This document shows positions 7,725 to 56,869 of a stretch of 64,000 nt of DNA, in pieces; the first letter of the stretch is position 1; each line of letters begins with the position of its first letter. The translations under genes and the position numbers were made by a program. The DNA is taken from positions 1 to 64,000 of the forward strand of contig NZ_FNPW01000015.1 of assembly GCF_900107395.1 (NCBI RefSeq), given 5' to 3'. The notes beneath the pieces are model-generated. The model searched no databases. It worked only from the letters and a program-made list of their open reading frames with translations, and was not told where the DNA came from. The DNA comes from Pseudomonas sp. NFIX28. GTDB lineage: Bacteria; Pseudomonadota; Gammaproteobacteria; Pseudomonadales; Pseudomonadaceae.

Positions 7725-8129
7725 TCAAGACGTCTGCGCGTCTCCCTGCCTTCGCGCGCCATCGAGCAACGCATCCACCACCGCTCGCGCCATCTCCACC
7801 GAATGGATCATCGACCAGATCAAGCCCCGCTCGATCCCGCTGGCACTGGTGATCTCATCCGCCGTTTCCTCGGCGCACTTGAGCAACAACGACACATGCA
7901 ACAACGCCTCCTCGGCACTGACGCCGGGGCGAACGGCGAATAGCGGACGGCCGTTGCCGTCGCGACAGCCGAAAGAGCTGCTGCCGGTTTCCTGCAAGCT
8001 ACGGTGCAACGGCTCGCCGCCATCGCTGCGTTCCAGCGCCTGACGCAGGGTTTGATTGGGGATTTCCAGTTGGACGATCCGCTCGCGGCTGGGCGAAAGC
8101 ATGGGCGGATCGGGGACGATCTTTTTCAT
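7725..8129 (-). CDS. DUF6124/DUF3077-type small Pseudomonas protein
   Basis: 134 aa from the ATG at 8129, preceded by AAGGAGCTGCGTC, a strong ribosome site. It starts MKKIVPDPPMLSP and continues with the pattern FAVRPGVSAEEALLHVSLLLKCAEETADE and a C-terminal helix (WSMIHSVEMARAVVDALL). This looks like the Pseudomonas families DUF6124/DUF3077, of unknown function. No membrane segment or signal peptide. The gene is preceded by a structured leader (8183-8261) and a hairpin (8332-8359) that both recur upstream of the DUF3077-like gene at 56290. A longer in-frame start at 8252 would lie inside the structured element and is not favoured. Confidence 0.68.
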   Translation of the reverse strand: MKKIVPDPPMLSPSRERIVQLEIPNQTLRQALERSDGGEPLHRSLQETGSSSFGCRDGNGRPLFAVRPGVSAEEALLHVSLLLKCAEETADEITSASGIERGLIWSMIHSVEMARAVVDALLDGARRQGDAQTS

Positions 8130-8182
8130 GACGCAGCTCCTTCTTTGATGAAGACCGCCAGCATCACTTGCAGATGATGGGT

Positions 8183-8261
8183 GGCGGCTACGTGCAGGTC
8201 TGCAAGACCGGGAAGAAGAAGCAAACCCGGCAGACCCGAAAGTCTCCCGCACGCAGCCACC
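8183..8261 (-). ncRNA. Structured 5' leader (three-way junction), copy 1
   Basis: On the minus strand GGTGGCTGCGTGCGGG (8261-8246) pairs over 16 positions, three of them G-U, with CCTGCACGTAGCCGCC (8198-8183). Inside lie a UUCG-capped hairpin AGACU-UUCG-GGUCU and a second hairpin CCGGG...CCCGG. The element ends 53 nt before the start codon at 8129. The same architecture is present at 56157-56231 before another gene of the same kind. Structure was read by eye. Function (attenuation, binding, stability) is unknown. Confidence 0.6.
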
Positions 8262-8331
8262 ATAAATCGAGCTGATATCTCAACGATTCTGGGTGTGCGT
8301 CTAGCGCTTCTTGCTTGTTCGGGCTTGCAGT

Positions 8332-8359
8332 CCCGGTCGCTGATTTTGCAGCGACCGGG
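8332..8359 (-). promoter_or_regulatory. Perfect 11-bp hairpin upstream of the structured leader, copy 1
   Basis: CCCGGTCGCTG, a 6-nt loop and CAGCGACCGGG form a perfect inverted repeat. On the minus strand the inner part reads GTCGCTG-CAAAAT-CAGCGAC. A near-identical hairpin (loop CAAATT) sits at 56049-56068 in the same relative place before copy 2. It could be a transcript element, a terminator-like block or a protein site. Confidence 0.6.
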
Positions 8360-8520
8360 GCAGCCTAGCCCCGAACATTCAACAGGCACAAGACGCCAAA
8401 ACCGCAGAAATGTAACCCCGCGATTCTCTCGGAAATACCTTACAAATCAAAGAGAAAAACCGTACAAGCCGCGAGCTTTTTTCCGCAAAAAATCGAGCAT
8501 CGACCGCCTGCTCAAAGGAC

Positions 8521-31341: not shown

Positions 31342-31476
31342 ATGTCGTCCCTCACCCTTACCATGCATCGTCACACTGCCAGCGCCGCGCGCTCCGGTGC
31401 GGCTGCCTGGGTGAAAAACGCCTGCGCTCCGGCGAGCTTTTATTTTGGGTATTGGTTTAGCCACTGGCGCGCCTGA
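31342..31476 (+). CDS. Aromatic-rich leader peptide of DAHP synthase (attenuator)
   Basis: 44 codons with GGAGAAACAGC before the ATG. It ends SFYFGYWFSHWRA, where 7 of 13 residues are Phe, Tyr or Trp, then TGA. A Rho-independent terminator follows 50 nt later. This is the layout of ribosome-mediated attenuation: stalling on aromatic codons when charged tRNA is scarce would prevent the terminator and allow transcription of the DAHP synthase gene. Seen directly: ORF, codon run, terminator. Mechanism is inference from the family of such leaders. Confidence 0.8.
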   Translation: MSSLTLTMHRHTASAARSGAAAWVKNACAPASFYFGYWFSHWRA

Positions 31477-31525
31477 TACCCAAACGGCGCCCACTTGAAC
31501 GGGTCGCCTACCAGAGAAAATCTCA

Positions 31526-31561
31526 CCCCCGGTCGGCCTCCCGACCGGGGGTTTTGTTTTT
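31526..31561 (+). terminator. Attenuator terminator after the leader peptide
   Basis: CCCCCGGTCGG, loop CCTC, CCGACCGGGGG followed by TTTTGTTTTT. An 11-bp perfect stem within the leader of the DAHP synthase gene. Confidence 0.9.
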
Positions 31562-55623: not shown

Positions 55624-56048
55624 GTCGAACTCCTGAATATCCTTAGAAAACACTATAAGCAACTAGACCAATTGGTCTATTGCTCTCGACTTCCTGATAA
55701 GCGACCAAGCAATCGAAAAAGCAAGAAATTGATAACCATCAGTCTTCTTGCATATCAACTCCAGACATTAGAACCAGAATTAGAAGCGAAGAAAACACGC
55801 GACATTCCGCAACAGCATATAGTGCACATATTCTGCATGATCAAAAATTCCCTTTTCATAACAGCATCCACTCAGGTGATGGCCAGTTGCCAAATGTGAA
55901 TCCCTGTCCGCAACCTGTCAAGTGCAAGGGGGGAGCCATCCTGATACACACAATCATACTAATAACCATTTCATATGCACCTCAATCGTATTTATGCAGG
56001 CAATCCATCCACTTGCGCACGTCCCTCTCCCCCCCCTATAGTTCGCTA
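55624..56048. other. AT-rich right flank of the island
   Basis: No gene supported. Presumably contains the leftward promoter of the ATPase operon. A clean consensus was not identified. The AT bias ends near 56070. Confidence 0.45.
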
Positions 56049-56068
56049 GTCGCTGCAAATTCAGCGAC
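56049..56068 (+). promoter_or_regulatory. Hairpin upstream of the structured leader, copy 2
   Basis: GTCGCTG-CAAATT-CAGCGAC, perfect 7-bp stem. Matches in stem and almost in loop the element at 8332-8359 read on the minus strand. It lies 88 nt before the three-way-junction element. Confidence 0.6.
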
Positions 56069-56156
56069 CTGACTTGGCCGTCAGCATTCCCGTAGCGCAC
56101 AGGCGCTCACCATCCGAAAGGCAAGCGCTTTTTTTGCGCCTGCACGTTCGTGTTAT

Positions 56157-56231
56157 GGCGACTGTGCGTGGGACACCTTCGGGTGTGCCGGGATGCTTCG
56201 GGCCCGGTCGGCCAACCCGCGTACAGTTGCC
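56157..56231 (+). ncRNA. Structured 5' leader (three-way junction), copy 2
   Basis: GGCGACTGTGCGTGGG (56157-56172) pairs with CCCGCGTACAGTTGCC (56216-56231), 16 bp with three G-U. Inside are ACACC-UUCG-GGUGU (56173-56186) and CCGGG...CCCGG (56188-56207). It ends 58 nt before the start codon at 56290. Compared with the copy at 8183-8261, base pair 2 of the first inner hairpin changes from C-G to G-C, a compensatory change. Confidence 0.62.
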
Positions 56232-56289
56232 ACCCTCCTTCGCTTGGCCGCGAACGGTGGTAACTCCCGAAGTTATGGAGTGTTACCCA

Positions 56290-56562
56290 ATGGATTACCA
56301 AGCGTTTAGCTCCTCCAACACCACCGACCACCCTGTCGCCTTTATCAACCCTCAAGCTCCTTTGCTTGACCTGCTGACCTACGCCGGCCTGCGCATCCGT
56401 GCAGCCCGGGACATGCTGGACAGCGTGTCTGGCATGACCAGCCGCAACACCGACGACCTCGACCTGATGCGCTTCTCCAGCGTGGCAACCTTGTTGTTGC
56501 AGGACGGATGCGATGTGTTGCACGTGGTTGAACAACGGGCGATGGAGCTGCCAGAGCCTTAA
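56290..56562 (+). CDS. DUF3077-like small Pseudomonas protein
   Basis: 90 aa from the ATG at 56290 (MDYQAFSSSNTTDHPVAFINPQAPLLDLLTYAGLRIRAARDMLDSV). An alternative ATG lies at 56275. Soluble helical protein, resembling short DUF3077/DUF6124-type proteins, with a C-terminal helix SVATLLLQDGCDVLHVVEQRAMEL like the end of the protein at 7725. Function unknown. Shares its upstream RNA architecture with that gene. A hexamer array follows its stop. Confidence 0.65.
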   Translation: MDYQAFSSSNTTDHPVAFINPQAPLLDLLTYAGLRIRAARDMLDSVSGMTSRNTDDLDLMRFSSVATLLLQDGCDVLHVVEQRAMELPEP

Positions 56563-56592: not shown

Positions 56593-56658
56593 GCTTTGGC
56601 TTTGGCTTTGGCTTTGGCTTTGGCTTTGGCTTTGGCTTTGGCTTTGGCTTTTTTTTTT
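56593..56658. repeat. GCTTTG hexanucleotide array with T-tract
   Basis: Nine perfect GCTTTG units (56593-56646) followed by GC and ten T, starting 31 nt after the DUF3077-like stop codon. On the minus strand it would encode Lys-Ala repeats. Confidence 0.9.
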
Positions 56659-56869
56659 GATCTTGATCCACCCGCCCCATCGGGAGGCCGAGTGGAGGTT
56701 CTGCGCAGTGGGCAACTCGGCAGGGATGCCGAGTTAGCCGCCCCAGGCCATGGATGGCCTGTGGCGGCGGCCCACGGAGCAGGACCGGAGCGAGGGAACC
56801 TGAGCGCAGCGAAGGCCGTACGCAGGGGCAAGCGTTTTTGCTTACTTTTTGCTGGGCCGGCATTCCGGC

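Follow-up and report, generated by a model that had tools for sequence, protein, structure and literature searches.

The C4 elements described here very probably act as antisense RNAs, each encoded in one unit with the small gene it controls and repressing the translation of that gene, as if a phage immunity device had been multiplied in bacterial chromosomes. C4 is usually filed as a phage RNA. As described for phages P1 and P7, it is an antisense RNA of phage immunity, with a1b1 and a2b2 targets and icd/ant genes (PMC8198154, PMC8546580, PMC5320573). The c4-a1b1 RNA is already known as well, as a table entry in PMC2864571, and 21 chromosomal Group 1 C4-like sRNAs, expressed and apparently processed, were reported in Acinetobacter baumannii, their targets being left open in the passages cited here (PMC5320573). 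Thus, C4 in P1/P7, c4-a1b1 and multi-copy Acinetobacter C4s are known, and new here are the scale and the wiring. A search of the open-licence literature, supplements excluded, returned no paper on a Pseudomonas C4 expansion, on DUF6124/DUF3077 genes as C4 targets or on private cis codes, and users of Rfam may well have seen the Pseudomonas copies already.

C4 elements of the NFIX28 window

The window is a 64,000-nt stretch of DNA from Pseudomonas sp. NFIX28, in which RNA families were identified by cmscan against Rfam. A preliminary description had pointed to two RNA elements, 56157-56231 (+) and 8183-8261 (-), and both were found at these positions. It had also predicted that they would have no Rfam match; both match RF01695 strongly (80.4 and 68.4 bits), and, as both are over the cut-off of this family, a new RNA motif is ruled out. 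Judged by their sequence, both are C4 antisense RNAs, each with its partner c4-a1b1 upstream. The observation largely holds, and the claim of novelty does not. The segments exposed in the C4 family structure are the hairpin 2 loop (b') and the three-way junction (a'). Their counterparts were sought in the 27-30 nt before the next ATG (b2), in the first 25-28 nt after C4 (a2) and in two upstream regions (b1 and a1).

Features of the 56-kb locus:
56013-56018 and 56037-56042 (+): promoter-like -35 (TTGCGC) and -10 (TATAGT), 18-nt spacer
56036-56088 (+): c4-a1b1 (RF03163), 47.3 bits, cut-off 46.7, upstream of the 56-kb C4
56049-56135 (+): isrK-like sRNA region (RF01394), 44.5 bits, below the cut-off of 50, E 1.3e-8
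56074-56080 (+): a1 (TTGGCCG), 7-nt complement of a'
56103-56128 and 56129-56135 (+): intrinsic-terminator-like hairpin and T7, from a terminator scan, coordinates counted by hand
56151-56237 (+): C4 antisense RNA (RF01695), 80.4 bits, cut-off 45
56196-56202 (+): b' (CTTCGGG), hairpin 2 loop, 7-nt complement of 56266-56272
56209-56215 (+): a' (CGGCCAA), three-way junction, 7-nt complement of a1 and a2
56244-56250 (+): a2 (TTGGCCG), pairs 7 nt with a'
56266-56272 (+): b2 (CCCGAAG), 18-24 nt before the ATG, just 5' of GGAG
56290-56562 (+): target gene, 90 aa, two-helix model, no Pfam match

Features of the 8-kb locus:
8422-8435 (-): motif TTTCCKAGARAMTC, upstream of the promoter-like boxes
8391-8386 and 8367-8362 (-): promoter-like -35 (TTGTGC) and -10 (TAGGCT), 18-nt spacer, placed by alignment on a1
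8368-8316 (-): c4-a1b1 (RF03163), 58.4 bits, cut-off 46.7, upstream of the 8-kb C4
8330-8324 (-): a1, pairs with 7 bases of a'
8312-8306 (-): b1, 7-nt complement of b'; c4-a1b1 plus b1 span 8306-8368
8177-8267 (-): C4 antisense RNA (RF01695), 68.4 bits, cut-off 45
8221-8213 (-): b' (CTTCTT in two registers), complementary to b2 over 6 nt and to b1 over 7 nt
8206-8199 (-): a' (CTTGCAGA), pairs 8 nt with a2
8174-8167 (-): a2 (TCTGCAAG), 8-nt complement of a'
8145-8140 (-): b2 (AAGAAG), within the Shine-Dalgarno sequence AAGAAGGAG
7725-8129 (-): target gene, 134 aa, DUF3077/DUF6124 by Pfam profiles

Most structural details of the preliminary description were recovered. In each element the closing stem comprises 16-17 bp with three G-U pairs (counted on the Rfam alignments) and a UUCG-capped 5-bp hairpin is present; pair 2 of the inner hairpin is C-G in one element and G-C in the other, and the distance to the start codon is 58 nt in the 56-kb element (from 56231, ATG at 56290) and 53 nt in the 8-kb element (from 8183, ATG at 8129). 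The CCGGG/CCCGG hairpin belongs to the family fold but is absent from the minimum-energy fold of the 8-kb copy, which is refolded there and lacks hairpin 2. The full elements fold better than all 200 of their dinucleotide shuffles (z -3.67 for the 56-kb and -5.61 for the 8-kb copy). Among 99 non-redundant C4s, standard pairs fill 99.3% of pair cells, two-sided changes occur at 19/27 pairs, and the covariation score is 0.376, as compared with 0.191 for shuffles; slid versions reach 0.13 at most. The three-stem fold of RF01695 with covariation is thus found for the family, the minimum-energy fold of the 8-kb copy departing from it in hairpin 2. Both window copies have a GG where the stem starts. 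In P1/P7 C4 this motif is the RNase P site, and the mature RNA is about 77 nt long (PMC5320573). The mature 56-kb C4 probably extends from about 56157 to 56231 (75 nt), beginning at GG, with its end placed by analogy with the RNase P site in PMC5320573.

When 90 loci were aligned on a1, 'tt' and 'ta...t' columns, each shared by half of the loci or more, appeared upstream of it and point to a probable RNA start at the a1b1 hairpin; the 56-kb transcript would start at about 56049, at the a1 hairpin. The 75 nt before C4 contain a terminator-like hairpin with a tail of five or more T in 51/99 loci, where it mostly lies some 20 nt from C4, as compared with 13/493 control windows taken from these loci. 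In NFIX28 the hairpin occurs in 8/21 loci, among them the 56-kb copy and not the 8-kb copy. The isrK family (RF01394) scores 50.8-55.2 bits in three of four phage loci, overlapping a1b1; the window copy (44.5 vs 50 bits) falls short of membership. In a folding comparison of attenuation closed by C4, blocking a1 and b1 raised terminator-arm pairing from 0.41 to 0.59 (0.44 with a control segment); pairing rose in 25 of 45 loci and fell in 6, as compared with 16 and 17 for the control, the other 6/51 terminator loci, with a run under 6, being left out. Folding thus leans weakly, and in a suggestive way only, to C4 closing the leader over a1b1 soaking up C4.

The motif upstream of the promoter-like boxes of the 8-kb locus, TTTCCKAGARAMTC, occurs at 7 places in the 6.73 Mb of the genome, all upstream of NFIX28's seven C4-led DUF6124 genes, and a reversed-pattern control at 0. 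As the motif was drawn from those loci, its absence elsewhere is the news. It is a candidate shared operator.

The chromosomal neighbours look ordinary, with DJ-1/PfpI genes near both window copies and an AAA ATPase adjoining the 56-kb copy. A perfect hexamer repeat (GCTTTG, 56593-56651, 9.8 copies) lies 30 nt past the stop of the 56-kb target gene, and a partial TwoAYGGAY RNA (RF01731, 46 bits, cut-off 43) at 56711-56773, downstream of this gene. Elsewhere in the window, the Pseudomonas sRNA P15 (RF00627) was found at 31434-31551 (126.1 bits).

Pairing between C4 and the adjacent gene

As a measure of pairing, we took the longest Watson-Crick run of a' or b' against the four places, and compared own with swapped locus pairs in the 21 NFIX28 loci and in 97/99 non-redundant loci (2 were dropped, with no ATG in range). 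In the 97 loci, b' paired with the ribosome-binding region of the next gene in runs of 7.6 nt on average in own pairs, and 4.4 nt in swapped ones, and a' paired with the segment just after C4 in runs of 7.0 and 4.4 nt, respectively; 0/5000 permutations reached either mean. Runs of at least 7 between b' and the Shine-Dalgarno (SD) region were found in 69/97 own pairs, as compared with 4.8% of swapped pairs, and those between a' and a2 in 93/97, as compared with 9.6%. The region-swapped controls were flat (b' vs the a2 region 3.94 vs 3.98; a' vs the SD region 3.59 vs 3.61). The b2 runs usually cover about -18 to -10 relative to the ATG, which is the position of the Shine-Dalgarno sequence. As counter-evidence, the b'-SD run was shorter than 6 in 16/97 loci.

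In the 21 NFIX28 loci, the mean runs of own and swapped pairs were 7.05 vs 4.07 nt for b'-SD, 7.19 vs 4.40 nt for a'-a2, 6.71 vs 4.64 nt for b'-b1, and 7.19 vs 5.33 nt for a'-a1, and the mean duplex energy at each of the four sites was reached by 0/20000 permutations. As to the window copies, a' and b' are complementary to a2 and b2 over 8 and 6 nt in the 8-kb copy, and over 7 and 7 nt in the 56-kb copy, and a1/b1 lie upstream of C4 in both, the b1 of the 56-kb copy being weak (own b'-b1 run 5). The b2 of the 56-kb copy is farther from the ATG than in most loci and lies upstream of the Shine-Dalgarno sequence, not on it. At both a' and b', the two copies have different codes. As its loops are complementary to the ribosome-binding region of the next gene, C4 is most readily understood as an antisense RNA that is encoded together with its target.

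The pairing is largely private within a genome. In NFIX28, both runs were at least 6 in 18/21 own pairs, as compared with 4/420 foreign ordered pairs. The same held for G401 (own 16/24, foreign 3/552) and for the loci included from three other genomes: G049 (own 9/14, foreign 0/182; 14 of 55 loci), G062 (own 11/14, foreign 4/182; 14 of 47 loci) and G111 (own 9/11, foreign 1/110; 11 of 45 loci). Ranked by energy, the own leader came first in 12/21 NFIX28 rows with b' alone, and in 13/21 with a' and b' summed. Several NFIX28 loci have a' in common (e.g., L003, L004, L008 and L009), and specificity must therefore rest on the a'/b' combination. Selection for insulation between the codes of one genome was not evident, as cross-matches were not clearly rarer within genomes (1.5% of pairs) than between them (2.3%). 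Only the bin with scaffold identity of at least 0.9 leans to insulation (0/22 vs 9/53, with similar downstream sequences removed), where shared ancestry is possible.

Target genes, copy number and phage relatives

The preliminary description spoke of two related small genes of the DUF6124/DUF3077 type. This holds for the 8-kb gene, the protein of which matches PF11275 (1.4e-7, 32.1 bits, cut-off 21) and PF19619 (2.2e-6, 27.9 bits, cut-off 27), but the 56-kb protein has no Pfam match at E 0.01. Nor did their relatedness find support: BLASTP gave no alignment between the two proteins, and comparison of the profiles of the two target groups gave a probability of 9.9% over 36 columns (E 0.0032, for a single comparison). 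The AlphaFold model of the 56-kb protein consists of two helices (mean pLDDT 82.3), and that of the 8-kb protein of a beta hairpin and two long helices (mean pLDDT 87.2). With the latter, Foldseek returned no PDB or viral match at E <=0.001, and a second fold comparison returned mostly helical, unrelated chains with Z of at most 7.7, which is uninformative on function.

Among 130 loci, C4 was followed directly by a gene in 80, by a short leader ORF that abuts or overlaps the next start in 41 and by neither in 7, and 2 had no ATG in range; one locus (L114), the leader ORF of which is an artefact, was counted with the direct-gene loci. The main frame has at least 60 aa in 121/128 loci, and some target frames look shifted or broken (e.g., L053). 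The 118 distinct targets include 46 DUF6124, 37 DUF3077 (the two sets may overlap) and 8 Bro-N antirepressor-type proteins, and PHROGs 6327 and 36471 match 23 and 24 of them. PADLOC gave two marginal matches only (E 0.0091) among the 118. A tblastn search of phage records at E 0.01 gave no match for one DUF3077 and one DUF3077/DUF6124 protein.

The linkage was also evident from the side of the genes. C4 was found just upstream, on the same strand, in 35/46 relatives of the two window proteins (themselves included; 46 of the 55 listed relatives were covered), and in 24/32 relatives outside NFIX28. The 11 relatives without C4 comprised four adjacent to PrrF, three NFIX28 copies with an a1b1 match, and four with neither. 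In the complete genome G401, as counted from coordinates, a DUF6124 match lies within 200 nt after 19/24 C4s, and 19/22 DUF6124 matches have a C4 before them. In a family-wide sample, DUF6124 was present in 6/119 genomes, all six belonging to the same genus. Taken together, covariation, pairing of the codes and gene-side linkage to C4 bear out the view that this is a selected RNA tied to small Pseudomonas genes.

The three NFIX28 copies with a1b1 (L132, L248 and L255) score 45.0, 58.2 and 33.4 bits, one of them over the cut-off of 46.7, and have no C4 match, which suggests that C4 is dispensable for some of these genes; they are possible natural C4-loss variants. In five genomes (L131, 931-1284; L262; L263; L264; L265), the iron sRNA PrrF is immediately preceded by a DUF6124-type gene that has no C4 match, the DUF6124 profile being matched for the NFIX28 copy only.

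The preliminary description saw two copies of the element; over the cut-off, 21 C4s were found in the NFIX28 genome (6.73 Mb in 42 contigs). In 119 sampled genomes of the genus, NFIX28 included, 110 had a C4 match, 109 of them over the cut-off, with 1 to at least 33 copies per matching genome (33 being the number of candidates scored per genome). When 150 candidates were scored in each of 12 high-copy genomes, 35, 36, 38, 41, 41, 42, 42, 43, 44, 45, 47 and 55 C4s were found. In a phylum-wide sample, C4 matches were present in 62/398 genomes and 41/212 genera, with 10 candidates scored per genome, so that copy numbers there are floors. Named control genomes gave a C4 match in 0/14. In two loci (L260 and L275), a single target gene is preceded by a tandem array of three C4-like elements, of which one in L275 is weak.

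The module also occurs in phages. Parts of the 56-kb leader of about 110-210 nt are about 73-78% identical to 10 phage and 8 plasmid records, and nine of these ten phages are named for Pseudomonas. C4 is present in phages PAJU2, phiAH14b and U10, as in the window, with the next start codon about 52-54 nt on, and a1b1 is over the cut-off in PAJU2 and U10. Unlike in the window, the targets are a Bro-N gene in PAJU2, where the a'-a2 run is only 4, and ORFs of 52 and 66 aa in phiAH14b and U10; in Phipami28, C4 precedes an ORF of 82 aa. The b'-SD runs in phiAH14b, U10 and Phipami28 are 9, 9 and 7. Viral contigs contain 51 stretches with a Pseudomonas-type C4 pattern, some of them near stretch ends, where they may be host flank, and many of these C4s are followed by leader ORFs or DUF3077/DUF6124-like genes (families read by eye). 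The same 52-aa leader ORF occurs in the C4-led modules of a chromosomal locus (L024) and phage phiAH14b (L237), and the former contains a chain of short ORFs with stop-start overlaps. The C4 module is thus common to phages and chromosomes, and the direction would be from phage to host.

The Pseudomonas C4s resemble those of P1/P7 in their fold, in the order of the RNAs, in a'/b' pairing near the next ribosome-binding site and in the position of C4 before its target and, in part of the loci, in a short leader ORF touching the next start. Unlike those of P1/P7, they are chromosomal and present in 21 copies here and up to 55 elsewhere, and the window targets are not icd or ant: the immI order of P1/P7, C4 and then icd and an antirepressor, was not found, the targets being a DUF3077/DUF6124 gene and an unmatched gene. 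With the Group 1 sRNAs of A. baumannii they share the many chromosomal copies and the variable a'; unlike there, where no cis target is named in the passages cited (PMC5320573), the target here is the next gene, tested against swapped pairs. The plan of the loci is also like that of IsrK-orf45-anrP of Salmonella Gifsy-1, where a short RNA terminates upstream, the read-through transcript includes an RNA that is processed, and a leader ORF is coupled to the antirepressor-like anrP; there, unlike in the present reading, orf45 is silenced by the mRNA's own fold and not by a C4 (PMC4825925). The plan likewise resembles the seqA/CI/seqC system of P4, for which the same paper describes closing of the leader by CI and seqA (PMC4825925).

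Proposed mechanism, alternatives and meaning

Transcription would run from the a1b1 hairpin, as the promoter-like boxes suggest, through C4 into the gene. RNase P, by analogy with P1/P7, would excise C4 at GG. The junction segment a' would pair with a2 just downstream, and the loop b' with b2 at or near the Shine-Dalgarno sequence of the next gene, pairings that are supported statistically, and translation would be blocked until C4 becomes limiting. In about half of the loci, a terminator-like hairpin between a1b1 and C4 would give rise to a short a1b1 RNA acting as a decoy for C4, or to an attenuator closed by C4. The slot of the antirepressor would now be occupied mostly by DUF6124, DUF3077 and other small genes.

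The chromosomal C4s might instead mainly silence antirepressor-type genes of incoming phages sharing the a2/b2 code, the neighbouring gene being incidental. Only a few bases of this region distinguish P1 from P7, and phage targeting was proposed by Weiss et al. as one role of Acinetobacter C4 (PMC5320573); the 51 viral-contig stretches and several phages carry a Pseudomonas-type C4, and single neighbours of NFIX28 loci match KilA-N (2), BstA, HicB-like and AAA_15 (46 frames scanned). However, the adjacent gene matches the code in most loci, which a purely trans-acting RNA need not keep, and code overlap is not clearly lower within genomes than between them. We thus regard this explanation as unlikely. 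We give about the same small credence to a type I toxin-antitoxin-like system, in which C4 would be the RNA antitoxin of a toxic small protein. This would explain the many copies; the targets are small and multi-copy, and Icd of P1, in an operon with c4 and ant1/2, inhibits host cell division (PMC8198154). Yet target relatives without a C4 match persist in NFIX28, as does a DUF6124-type gene without C4 beside PrrF in the five genomes, and PADLOC gave only its two marginal matches among the targets.

It is decidedly improbable that the elements are functionless prophage relics. The occurrence of the module in phages and viral contigs, and the three NFIX28 relatives of the window genes that keep a1b1 only, would fit such an origin, but nearly all pair cells are kept, with two-sided changes, the codes are matched at up to four sites per locus, and almost all main frames have at least 60 aa. 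The possible cis-regulator of the preliminary description does not look like one of the ligand type, as its loops are complementary to the ribosome-binding region of the next gene. The compact three-way junction at a fixed distance from the start codon would suit a ligand-sensing element, but it is the junction and the loop, where a conserved pocket would be expected, that vary, and they do so in step with the target, which makes ligand sensing the remotest of these alternatives.

Most C4s carry a code of their own that matches the start of the adjacent gene, which makes them look like a bank of separate switches, not remnants of a single virus. Although single segments may recur between loci, the combination of a' and b' is for the most part private, and the modules within a chromosome would therefore be expected to work largely independently of one another. 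We tentatively propose, as a possibility that we hold with less than even confidence, that Pseudomonas chromosomes carry a bank of about 20-55 mutually orthogonal antisense switches, each silencing its own DUF6124/DUF3077-type gene in cis and part of them wired by a shared upstream motif, so that a phage lysis-lysogeny device would have become a host regulon. As part of the bank has this motif, one signal could set many separately insulated genes.

If 20-55 C4s act as private chromosomal switches, they would form a natural collection of orthogonal antisense regulators of unusual size, the targets of which could be listed from sequence. The cis targets may offer an answer to the question left by the Acinetobacter study, as it stands in the passages cited (PMC5320573), and DUF6124 and DUF3077 would be placed in a regulatory context, with a probable phage origin that could be tested.
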